Assembly: GCA_028222435.1 (NCBI GenBank)
Contig: JAOIST010000018.1
Location: forward strand, 1 to 8,237
DNA from: Candidatus Pelagibacter sp.
Lineage (GTDB): Bacteria > Pseudomonadota > Alphaproteobacteria > Pelagibacterales > Pelagibacteraceae
Direction of reading: 5' to 3'
Length of the DNA: 8,237 nucleotides
Shown: positions 3,050-7,024 of the stretch, one piece after another
Position numbering within the stretch: position 1 is the first letter of the stretch
Layout: each line of letters starts with the position of its first letter
Notes under the pieces: generated by a model
What the model was told of the DNA's origin: nothing
Databases searched by the model: none
What the model saw: only the letters and a program-made list of their open reading frames with translations
Program-made: the position numbers and the translations under genes

Positions 3050-3730
3050 TCACCTACCCAAAGATTTTAAAAAAGGCTGCAATTTTGCAGCCTTTTTTTT
3101 TGCAATAAATAAACATGCTATTGAACTAAGTATCAATCCATCTTTAAGAATTCGTAAATTGTTATCAGCCAAAGTTTTTCCTGTAGATGTAATATCAGTA
3201 ATTATTTCTGAAGAGCCTATAAAAGGATATGTTTCTGTAGCACCAAGACTGGGTATCAATTTGTATTGGGTAACTCCTTTCGAAATCAAAAAATCATTAG
3301 TTAAATTTGGATACTTAGTTGCTACTCTCAACCTAGTATTTCTTTTGGATCTTATATCAAATGATATTTCTTCGAGGTCAGCAATCGTCTGCACATCTAT
3401 CCAGTCATCTGGCACAGCAACCACTAGGTTCGCATTTCCATATTCAAGTTTTTTTTGAATATTTATTTTATTTTGTAAATTTTTGTCTGATTCTTTTAAA
3501 AGATCTAGGCCTGATACGCCAATATCTAAAGTTCCGTCTCCTAATCTTTGAATAATTTCTTTAGCGTGAAGAAATATAATTTTAATGTTGGGTTTATTTT
3601 CGATAACACCAAAATAATTTCTTTCTTTTTCGCTTTGTATAATTTTCAACCCGTTGTCATTAAAAAATGATATTGATTTTTCTTTTAATCGCCCTTTACT
3701 TGGCAAACCTATTGTAATTAAATCTTTCAT
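3050..3730 (-). CDS. hisG: HisG, ATP phosphoribosyltransferase, short form (catalytic subunit)
   Basis: HisG catalyses the first step of histidine synthesis, ATP + PRPP to phosphoribosyl-ATP. At 226 residues it is the short form, lacking the C-terminal regulatory domain and needing HisZ for activity and feedback by histidine. Visible signatures are IGLPSKGRLKE (7-17), LGDGTLDIGVSGLD (63-76), LRVATKYPN (134-142) and the PRPP-binding DITSTGKTL (179-187). The ATG at 3730 overlaps the hisZ stop as ATGA, which implies translational coupling to the activating subunit. The last codons contain the groESL terminator and an A9 run (AAA AAA AAG at residues 211-213), a possible slippage site. The final 16 residues are therefore doubly constrained. 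The stop is 3 nt from the groEL stop. Confidence 0.95.
   Translation of the reverse strand: MKDLITIGLPSKGRLKEKSISFFNDNGLKIIQSEKERNYFGVIENKPNIKIIFLHAKEIIQRLGDGTLDIGVSGLDLLKESDKNLQNKINIQKKLEYGNANLVVAVPDDWIDVQTIADLEEISFDIRSKRNTRLRVATKYPNLTNDFLISKGVTQYKLIPSLGATETYPFIGSSEIITDITSTGKTLADNNLRILKDGLILSSIACLFIAKKKAAKLQPFLKSLGR
3069..3101 (+). terminator. Rho-independent terminator of groESL, embedded in the hisG 3' end
   Basis: GGCTGC (3075-3080) pairs with GCAGCC (3087-3092) across AATTTT. Flanking A's (3069-3074) pair with the start of a nine-T run (3093-3101). This is a textbook intrinsic terminator 28 nt after the groEL stop. It lies entirely within hisG codons 210-221 on the other strand. Read from the minus strand the same hairpin is followed by six T's, so it could act in both directions. 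On that strand, termination would come just before the hisG stop unless translating ribosomes prevent folding. Confidence 0.9.
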
Positions 3731-6190: not shown

Positions 6191-6220
6191 TTTATATATG
6201 TTTGATTATAAGCTAAGCAA
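6191..6220 (-). promoter_or_regulatory. Candidate promoter for tRNA-His/hisSZG
   Basis: On the minus strand TTGCTT (6220-6215) and TATAAA (6196-6191) are separated by 18 nt, placing the transcript start about 27 nt before the mature tRNA end. A perfect TATAAT also occurs at 6210-6205, but its -35 region is poor. The -35 lies inside the dyad at 6212-6229. This is pattern-based only, in a very A/T-rich stretch where such matches are common. Confidence 0.35.
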
Positions 6221-6283
6221 TAGCCTAGCGTGCATTCTGTGAGAATGTTTACTTAAAGTAGAAATCTTGTTTTTTATAACCAT
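6206..6283 (-). CDS. Candidate 25-codon His-containing leader peptide upstream of tRNA-His/hisSZG
   Basis: A short frame begins MVIKNK at 6283, reaches KHSHRMHAR at codons 12-20 and ends LLLSL before TAA. His occurs at codons 13, 15 and 18 (CAT, CAC, CAC), directly upstream of histidine genes and tRNA-His. Codons 13-17 are one inverted repeat and codons 19-24 a second. There is no Shine-Dalgarno, but a candidate promoter at 6292-6319 would start transcription within a few nt of the ATG, giving a leaderless message. No U-tract terminator follows, so classical attenuation is not demonstrated. A frame this short can arise by chance, and the start and its use are unproven. Confidence 0.25.
   Translation of the reverse strand: MVIKNKISTLSKHSHRMHARLLLSL
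6212..6229 (-). other. Inverted repeat upstream of tRNA-His (hairpin or operator)
   Basis: The minus strand reads GCTAGGC, TATT, GCTTAGC: seven pairs including one G-U, so it is complete as RNA from the minus strand but has one mismatch as DNA. It overlaps the candidate -35 of the tRNA promoter and codons 19-24 of the short His-containing frame. It is not followed by a T tract, so it is not an ordinary terminator. Confidence 0.45.
6233..6247. other. Perfect 6-3-6 inverted repeat upstream of tRNA-His
   Basis: CATTCT GTG AGAATG is an exact dyad with 6-bp arms, 3 nt from the dyad at 6212-6229. It could be a protein-binding site or an RNA stem. Its arms fall on His codons 13-17 of the short frame on the minus strand. 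No regulator family is recognised. Confidence 0.45.
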
Positions 6284-6291
6284 TATCGTTT

Positions 6292-6319
6292 ATTTAAGAA
6301 ATAAATGTGTCTTTTTCAA
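6292..6319 (-). promoter_or_regulatory. Candidate upstream promoter of the tRNA-His/hisSZG leader
   Basis: TTGAAA (6319-6314) and TTAAAT (6297-6292) are 16 nt apart on the minus strand; TAAATA at 17 nt is an alternative -10. The transcript would begin near 6284, next to the ATG of the short His-containing frame. It is weak and unsupported beyond pattern. Confidence 0.25.
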
Positions 6320-6329
6320 GGAATACTAG

Positions 6330-6363
6330 CGGGACAGAACAATATTTCTAATGCTTTGTCCCG
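6330..6363 (-). ncRNA. GAAA-capped hairpin 3' of the downstream csp gene (copy 1)
   Basis: As minus-strand RNA, CGGGACA pairs with UGUCCCG (7 bp). Then come an A-C mismatch, an inner stem AGCA/UGUU (A-U, G-U, C-G, A-U), a U-U mismatch, and U-A and A-U pairs closing a GAAA tetraloop. It begins 25 nt after the csp stop at 6389. The same architecture follows the other csp at 6662-6697, with sequence changes that keep pairing. No U tract follows, so it is not a standard terminator. It is probably part of the csp 3' UTR; its function is unknown. Confidence 0.65.
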
Positions 6364-6388
6364 ATAATTTGTGATTTTGGAAATAAGA

Positions 6389-6598
6389 TTAAGCTTTCTG
6401 CAATTTTACTGCCGAAGGACCTTTGTCTCCATTCTCTACTTCAAACGTTAATTCATCACCTTCGTTTAAATAATTTAAACCGGCTTCTTTAACAGCTGAA
6501 GAATGTACGAACACATCTTTTTCTTTATCTTCTCTTTCAATGAAACCATATCCTTTAGTACCATTGAACCACTTTACTTTACCTTTTAGTGTACTCAT
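6389..6598 (-). CDS. Cold-shock domain protein (CspA family), downstream copy
   Basis: The 69-residue single cold-shock domain is an OB-fold that binds single-stranded RNA/DNA and acts as an RNA chaperone. RNP1 is KGYGFI (15-20) and RNP2 is VFVHSS (29-34), with KWFNGTKG (9-16) at the start of the fold. It differs from the copy at 6724-6936 only at residues 37 (K for R), 42 (N for K), 69 (A for T) and in lacking the last Ser. The frame is open upstream to 6700, but the conserved [11 protein letters not shown] fixes the start at 6598. The added 34 codons have no counterpart in the other copy and run across the 6662-6697 hairpin. Upstream AAGAAAG is a weak ribosome site. The leader between the two copies is about 125 nt. 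Confidence 0.95.
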
Positions 6599-6661
6599 GT
6601 TTATTGTTTTCTTTCTTGTTGTTGTTGATACGCCATCTATATTGATGAGGTATTTTTTATA

Positions 6662-6697
6662 TTGGGACAAAACCATATTTCTAAAGTTATGTCCCAA
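6662..6697 (-). ncRNA. GAAA-capped hairpin 3' of the upstream csp gene (copy 2)
   Basis: As minus-strand RNA, UUGGGACA pairs with UGUCCCAA (8 bp). Then come a U-U mismatch, an inner stem AACU/GGUU (A-U, A-U, C-G, U-G), a U-U mismatch, and U-A and A-U pairs closing GAAA. It starts 26 nt after the csp stop at 6724 and lies in the leader of the next csp. Relative to copy 1 the outer pair is U-A instead of C-G, with pair-preserving changes in the inner stem. No such element is seen upstream of the first csp, so it goes with csp 3' ends. An overlapping TTTAGA-18-TATAAA could be a promoter for the next csp (weak). Confidence 0.65.
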
Positions 6698-6723
6698 CAA
6701 TTCTTGAATTTAGGAAATTTAGA

Positions 6724-6936
6724 TTAAGATGTTTTCTGCAGTTTTACTGCTGAAGGACCTTTGTCTCCATTCTCCACTTCAAACGTTAACTCATCACCTT
6801 CGTTTAAATATTTTAAACCTGCTTCTCTAACAGCTGAAGAATGCACGAACACGTCTTTTTCTTTGTCTTCTCTCTCAATGAAACCATATCCTTTAGTACC
6901 ATTGAACCACTTTACTTTACCTTTTAGTGTACTCAT
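6724..6936 (-). CDS. Cold-shock domain protein (CspA family), upstream copy
   Basis: The 70-residue cold-shock domain has RNP1 KGYGFI and RNP2 VFVHSS, identical to those of its neighbour, and 66 of 69 aligned residues match. The first 58 coding bases are identical between the copies; the rest carries about a dozen differences, mostly silent. This is a tandem duplication kept under purifying selection, perhaps with local gene conversion at the 5' end. AAGGAA (6953-6948) lies 11 nt before the ATG at 6936. A perfect 7-3-7 dyad sits in the leader at 6970-6986. The role is RNA chaperone activity; cold induction versus constitutive expression cannot be told from the sequence. Confidence 0.95.
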
Positions 6937-6969
6937 ATTATTTGTTTTTCCTTATTATTATTTACTTTA

Positions 6970-6986
6970 ACTAATCAAAGATTAGT
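6970..6986 (-). other. Perfect 7-3-7 inverted repeat in the csp leader
   Basis: ACTAATC AAA GATTAGT is an exact dyad 34-50 nt upstream of the csp start at 6936. If the candidate promoter at 6998-7024 is used, it lies at the very 5' end of the csp mRNA and would fold into a hairpin. As DNA it could instead be an operator. It is not found before the second csp. Confidence 0.5.
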
Positions 6987-6997
6987 CACTTGCATCT

Positions 6998-7024
6998 TTA
7001 ATATCTTAGAGCAATAAAAGTCAA
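6998..7024 (-). promoter_or_regulatory. Candidate csp promoter
   Basis: TTGACT (7024-7019) on the minus strand matches the -35 consensus at five of six bases. TATTAA (7003-6998) after 15 nt or TTAAAG after 17 nt is a weak -10. The expected transcript would start near 6990, about 55 nt before the csp ATG, in the gap after accA. Confidence 0.35.

Follow-up and report, generated by a model that had tools for sequence, protein, structure and literature searches.

Almost all cold-shock protein (csp) genes at the Pelagibacterales loci examined are followed by a hairpin that is conserved at the RNA level, with pair-preserving changes in its stem, and that in the window and in three of the four sequence groups defined below lacks a U tract. 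This hairpin is probably a 3′-end structure that defines and protects the csp mRNA, taking the place of an intrinsic terminator. The window is the whole stretch of Candidatus Pelagibacter sp. DNA that was analysed (8,237 nucleotides), and it carries two such hairpins, one after each of two tandem csp genes.

The csp region of the window

The − strand of the window reads accA, csp-A, hairpin, csp-B, hairpin, promoter-like sequence, His-rich micro-ORF, tRNA-His and hisS, and the same series ends with a second histidyl-tRNA-synthetase-like gene and then hisG. By our own reading of the window ORFs, groES and groEL lie on the + strand. The features of the csp region are as follows.

6998..7024, − strand: promoter-like TTGACT (7024-7019) and TATTAA (7003-6998) before csp-A, by eye
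6968..6988, − strand: small hairpin (TGACTAATC/GATTAGTTA) near the predicted 5′ end of the csp-A mRNA, position from the sequence
6724..6936, − strand: csp-A, the upstream copy, a 70-aa cold-shock protein (Pfam CSD PF00313, E 1.2e-25)
6700..6723, − strand: linker from the csp-A stop to its hairpin, alignable to relatives (TCTAAATTTCC...)
6660..6699, − strand: 3′ hairpin of csp-A, also lying between both csp genes, no U tract (fold, shuffles, alignment)
6389..6598, − strand: csp-B, the downstream copy, a 69-aa cold-shock protein (Pfam CSD PF00313, E 2.7e-25)
6364..6388, − strand: linker from the csp-B stop to its hairpin
6330..6363, − strand: 3′ hairpin of csp-B, no U tract (fold, shuffles, alignment)
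6291..6319, − strand: promoter-like TTGAAA-N17-TAAATA right after the csp-B hairpin, similar in relatives (by eye, alignments)
6157-6084, − strand: tRNA-His

Folding of the csp-strand (−) RNA gave both hairpins at the places and with the architecture that had been proposed from the sequence, namely a GGGACA/UGUCCC stem, a 1x1 mismatch, a 4-bp stem, a U-U mismatch, 2 bp and a GAAA tetraloop. The minimum free energy is −15.2 kcal/mol for the csp-B hairpin (6328-6365; z-score −4.95) and −17.2 kcal/mol for the csp-A hairpin (6660-6699; z-score −5.16), and in each case none of 200 shuffles folds as well. The complementary strand folds less well (−13.9 for the csp-B hairpin and −11.9 for the csp-A hairpin). 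The arm spacing is equal in the two copies, at 20 nt as proposed, and the upstream (csp-A) hairpin can be extended to 10 bp (6660-6699). Exact GGGACA-N20-TGTCCC occurs in the window only at the two hairpins; the same search gave one match with 3 mismatches, at the tRNA.

The differences between the two copies preserve pairing, as originally predicted: read on the folds, they are an outer C-G against U-A, an inner G-U against A-U, and A-U against U-G. The csp-A and csp-B ORFs are almost identical and have alignable 3′ UTRs, which within the window supports the proposal that the duplicated unit was csp plus its 3′ element. An importance of the GNRA loop is not supported; a GNRA apical loop is present in only 4 of 127 homologous hairpins, two of which are the window copies, and we therefore rule out the loop as a functional part and a GNRA-capped functional hairpin.

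The interval between the csp hairpin and tRNA-His/hisS/hisG contains the His-rich micro-ORF (6206-6283, − strand; MVIKNKISTLSKHSHRMHARLLLSL). It is present in 133 of 134 csp-tRNA-His entries (same-genome duplicates included), with a mean of 3.23 His against 0.88 in base-shuffled ORFs, and looks like a histidine leader peptide. Eleven uORFs, unnamed in the portions of the text available, are reported for SAR11 HIMB5 (PMC6429828), and the micro-ORF may be among them. At its end lies a small hairpin, GCTAGGC-TATT-GCTTAGC (6212-6229, − strand), here without a U tract; other groups have other paired sequences at this place (GCTGGC...GCTAGC, ATAGCC...GGCTAT, by eye), and the hairpin is possibly part of an attenuator. 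The −10-like TAAATA ends 7 nt before the micro-ORF ATG (6281-6296, − strand), with a similar layout in relatives by eye, so the peptide may come from a leaderless or nearly leaderless mRNA. Elsewhere near csp, a glycine riboswitch (RF00504) was found in two of nine related loci scanned (L001, 65-150, − strand; L034, 54-141, − strand).

Conservation of the stem across SAR11 csp genes

We found csp genes by motif in the window, in 80 loci and in 66 further loci (L081-L146). The 80 loci are the best csp-A matches listed from a GTDB genome scan, and all are assigned to Pelagibacteraceae, Pelagibacter or Pelagibacterales; the further 66 comprise 30 from among the matches listed and 36 picked by hand for diversity. 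An order-wide search gave a csp match in at least 183 of 197 genomes, so that the order is sampled rather than exhausted. The sample amounts to 152 csp genes with 135 distinct 3′ UTRs. Four groups, A (that of the window), B, F and G, were delimited manually, with no tree, and contain 127 of the 135 UTRs; their members are related sequences and not independent events. Outside the groups are L070_2, L074_2 and L075_2 (another hairpin, next to the leader ORF), L120, L122, L137 and L136 (no equivalent hairpin) and L127 (a canonical terminator).

A stem with a score of at least 17 and at least 3 G-C pairs is present in 129 of the 135 distinct csp 3′ UTRs, compared with 14 of 93 other gene ends from two SAR11 genomes. 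The score alone is reached by 132 csp 3′ UTRs, four of which do not have the equivalent hairpin (L136 and, in three tandem pairs, the second csp copy). A score of 17 is by itself a weak criterion: it was attained by 59 of 167 gene ends of our first, looser baseline, which we replaced with the 93-end baseline because it included stems inside neighbouring coding sequence. The stem starts 11-27 nt past the stop (median 20; 125 UTRs). For 86 of the 135 UTRs none of 20 shuffles was as good, and over all UTRs together the real score was matched by 147 of 2700 shuffles. At least 3 of 20 shuffles were as good for 16 UTRs, three of which are loci without the hairpin.

Within a sequence group the outer stem hardly changes; from one group to the next its sequence is entirely different, and still it pairs (CGGGACA/UGUCCCG; UUGUAUAGG/CCUAUACAA; AAAGGRCGUU/AACGUCCUUU; UAUUGGCUG/CAGCCAAUA). 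Across groups the G's lie in the 5′ arm and the C's in the 3′ arm, and the inner part and loop are variable. In a sequence-only alignment of group A (49 sequences), 99.4% of cells are paired, two-sided change occurs at 4 of 11 pairs (in one sequence each), and none of 500 shuffles reaches either the pairing value or the two-sided-change value. In a plain MAFFT alignment of the second group (A2; 43 of 58 sequences) the arms of the GGGGCA subgroup are out of register, and no pairs were therefore counted on it.

Pairing across groups was examined in a stem-anchored register, from which two rows (L128 and L075_1) were dropped because their best stem was another one. The 8-bp core is paired in 93.1% of cells, compared with 68.4% (maximum 72.9%) when partners are swapped (125 UTRs), and for the 55 distinct stems the values are 91.8% and 66.8%; pairing is favoured in this test, since the stems had been selected for it. 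Windows anchored on Watson-Crick pairs contain 14 A-C cells against 40 G-U cells. The proposal of a selected 3′ UTR RNA structure belonging to csp is thus supported, the hairpin recurring across the Pelagibacterales loci examined with compensatory changes. Homologous csp loci without a hairpin, which the original prediction had named as evidence against it, do exist: three of 135, where csp leads straight into another ORF, and L136, whose 3′ UTR is shortened. In three tandem pairs (L070, L074, L075) the hairpin after the second csp is a different one.

The hairpin goes with csp and not with the gene downstream. In the six loci of group G, which represent a second csp paralog, the downstream gene is a different one (from our reading of translations, a racemase-like ORF in 5 of 6 loci and an opposite-strand ORF in L142), yet the paralog carries a hairpin of its own, whose sequence is unrelated. 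In tandem csp pairs (the window, L070, L074 and L075) a hairpin follows each copy, and these are not all of one kind. Where an ORF begins ~30 nt after csp (L120, L122 and L137) there is no comparable stem in any of the three loci, and in L136 the hairpin was lost along with part of the UTR, by our own reading.

Three further arrangements were seen around these genes. The hairpins of L070_2, L074_2 and L075_2 have a long stem, for example TATTGTTGCAAAGTA/TACTTTGCAGCAATG, that reaches into the start codon of the His-rich micro-ORF. The ORF ~30 nt after csp in L120, L122 and L137 is small and basic (MGIHYDYKSKRGERAMLKEA...), representing another Pelagibacterales csp layout. In a csp-like paralog (L147-L150; 36-44% identical to the query), tRNA-Met begins 5-9 nt past the stop in 4 of 4 loci, so that a structured element bounds the 3′ side here as well, and its cutting would give this mRNA a defined end too.

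RNA structure, transcript end and stability

The original prediction had left room for a dyad operator, and the DNA dyad could be a transcription factor binding site acting on the downstream promoter, given the perfect inverted repeats and a −35-like TTGAAA ~10 nt past the stem. The arm spacing is not fixed, however, the GG-to-CC span ranging from 26 to 56 nt across loci. Of 127 hairpins, 109 fold more stably as csp-strand RNA than as the complement, 17 fold less stably and one is tied; 12 of the 17 contrary cases belong to group A (49 hairpins), the group of the window itself. The hairpin also occurs ahead of a different gene, and in the space separating tandem csp genes. Changing outer stems that still pair, variable spacing and better folding of the csp strand together argue for a selected RNA structure, and we reject a DNA operator as very improbable.

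Copy number points the same way: nine of 10 genomes have GGGACA...TGTCCC at csp and the remaining one a variant stem, with two extra matches in the ten genomes that fall inside coding sequence by our own reading, and TGTATAGG...CCTATACA occurs exactly once per genome in 10 of 10. A genome-wide repeat of the REP/BIME kind is ruled out as well, the stem being present once per genome, at csp, and not in many copies.

We infer that the hairpin is the 3′ terminus of the csp mRNA, with transcription ending at or just past it, before the putative promoter of the next operon. In groups without a U tract this end would probably come from Rho-dependent or other non-canonical termination, followed by 3′-5′ trimming back to the hairpin, which would then block PNPase-type exonucleases and stabilise the csp mRNA; group F has an ordinary U-tract intrinsic terminator in the same position. 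In the window, the upstream hairpin, between both csp genes, would protect the csp-A message.

Neither window copy is followed by a U tract, as had been noted originally, the 8 nt after the last stem G/C being AAUAUAAA (csp-A) and CUAGUAUU (csp-B). The number of U in these 8 nt is 2-5 in group A, 1-5 in group B and 1-4 in group G (maximum 5), and canonical intrinsic terminators occupy the same place in group F (6-8 U in 12 of 13) and in L127 (8 U). At least 7 U follow 10 of 129 csp stems; among the comparable stems that end other SAR11 genes the figure is 6 of 14. Among the 76 other genomes of the class that were searched we found 29 csp genes, one per genome, 16 of them with 6-7 U. Canonical csp terminators are therefore frequent elsewhere in the class and in one SAR11 group, and the window form has no U tract.

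These counts bear on a simpler reading, in which the hairpin has no stabilising role and is an intrinsic terminator, either with a decayed U tract or of a type for which SAR11 RNA polymerase needs no strong U tract. The U-tract terminators at the same place in group F, L127 and the other genomes of the class are in its favour, as are the 2-5 T left in the 8 nt past the stem in group A and the position of the hairpin just before a promoter-like sequence. Yet the same organisms have 7-8 U tracts at some other gene ends (6 of 14 stems, and the groEL terminator of the window at about 3075-3101, identified by eye), the sequence after the csp-A stem is AAUAUAAA, and the csp-A copy is enclosed by a tandem csp pair in which inspection by eye shows no clear second promoter. 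We consider this reading rather unlikely, and favour an end that is defined and protected by the hairpin.

The enzymes that a protected end would call on were present over cut-off in the related SAR11 genomes, Rho in 13 of 13 and PNPase in 12 of 13, the remaining PNPase being a fragment near a contig end. In groups A, B and G the linker between stop and stem is poor in G (1-4%) and contains C (16-28%); in group F, C is at 6%. For comparison, the 22 nt that follow other SAR11 stop codons contain 11-12% C and 10-12% G. Per sequence, the median excess of C over G is 4 in group A and 2 in both B and G; at other gene ends the 90th percentile is 3, a value that only group A exceeds. Rut sites are far longer than ~20 nt, and the linker, at about that length, is too short to be called one. 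Constancy of the stem within groups seems to exceed what a mere exonuclease block needs, which counts against end protection. Hfq was found in 0 of 13 related SAR11 genomes with a model that was positive in 5 of 14 controls, including E. coli and Caulobacter, and this weakens, rather than excludes, an Hfq-dependent 3′ UTR sRNA.

A small hairpin also lies ~45-50 nt before the csp start, just past the promoter-like −10 (by eye). Its stems change with pairing kept (AACTAATC/GATTAGTT, AAGCTAA/TTAGCTT, ATTACTTA/TAAGTAAT), and the share of shuffles that score as high is 8.5% in group A, 14% in B, 4% in G and 54% in F. It recurs in most csp genes of groups A, B and G and is absent in group F, which has the U-tract terminators; this contrast may reflect a single evolutionary event, so the association of the 5′ hairpin with the U tract is only suggestive. 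The downstream tandem copy, csp-B, has no 5′ hairpin. The 5′ and 3′ hairpins together fit an mRNA armoured at both ends.

Alternatively, the 3′ UTR might be autoregulatory, with CSP binding a post-stop box and/or melting the hairpin and so altering how stable its own mRNA is or how much transcription continues into tRNA-His/hisS. CSPs melt RNA hairpins and can be antiterminators, and the stop-proximal stretch is well conserved within groups. In P. ubique, the amounts of the CspE and CspL proteins are reported to have been correlated with iron availability, and among proteins up by at least 50% SfuC alone rose as much in mRNA (PMC2864753); these findings would be in line with autoregulation. 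Against it, the linker sequences differ between groups, and the stems are wholly different between groups while the CSPs share about 70-99% identity with the query. On these sequence comparisons we regard autoregulation as improbable.

We have similarly little confidence in a fuller model, in which the csp mRNA would be a double-capped, self-regulated module whose 5′ hairpin, stop-proximal box and 3′ hairpin set its lifetime, CSP melting the 3′ hairpin and thereby switching between a stable monocistronic mRNA and read-through into tRNA-His/hisS/hisG. If true, such a module would be a CSP-based post-transcriptional circuit in organisms without detected Hfq.

Relation to known systems

SAR11 bacteria are among the most abundant in the ocean and have few transcription factors. 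With or without a U tract within one order, the csp hairpin offers a natural experiment on the replacement of intrinsic termination, and csp is a good first gene for 3′-end mapping in SAR11.

We found no match to a known Rfam family at the window hairpins (E up to 1) and none above the gathering score in nine related loci. The Rfam cspA thermoregulator (RF01766) is likewise linked to csp, but it is a 5′ UTR element; its match in the window lies within the csp-B coding sequence, with a score of 18.3 against a gathering score of 78. Rho-independent terminators have a hairpin at the same place and occur in canonical form in group F and L127, whereas the window copies and groups A, B and G have no U tract.

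A 3′-end hairpin of this kind is already known, and its presence on SAR11 csp is the new part. No earlier report of a csp 3′ hairpin was met in the literature searched. The main texts of a SAR11 RNA search (PMC2704228) and of the HIMB5 study (PMC6429828), in the portions available, do not mention csp or cold shock; their supplements may list the region. As for the features expected of a stabilising 3′-end hairpin, we found a selected stem past the stop without a U tract, and both Rho and a 3′-5′ exonuclease in the set of 13 related genomes.

In work on E. coli, hairpin ends without a U tract are attributed to termination by Rho and subsequent trimming as far as a stabilising hairpin (PMC13289151). 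The SAR11 form is like these ends in its stable post-gene hairpin, in the absence of a U tract and in a presumed trimmed 3′ end, and Rho and PNPase are also present in related SAR11 genomes. It differs in being tied to one gene family at the Pelagibacterales loci examined and in being known from sequence alone.

Another parallel is with hairpins inside operons. The puf operon of Rhodobacter capsulatus has an intercistronic stabilising hairpin, and a study of programmed operon decay reportedly dealt with intercistronic and 3′ stabilising hairpins. Passages of a further paper name puf as an example of a stabilising hairpin (PMC7509114). The csp-A copy is likewise flanked by two genes, of which it could shield the one upstream; unlike the puf type, the tandem paralogs of the window each have their own hairpin, and here the effect on decay is one that we infer.
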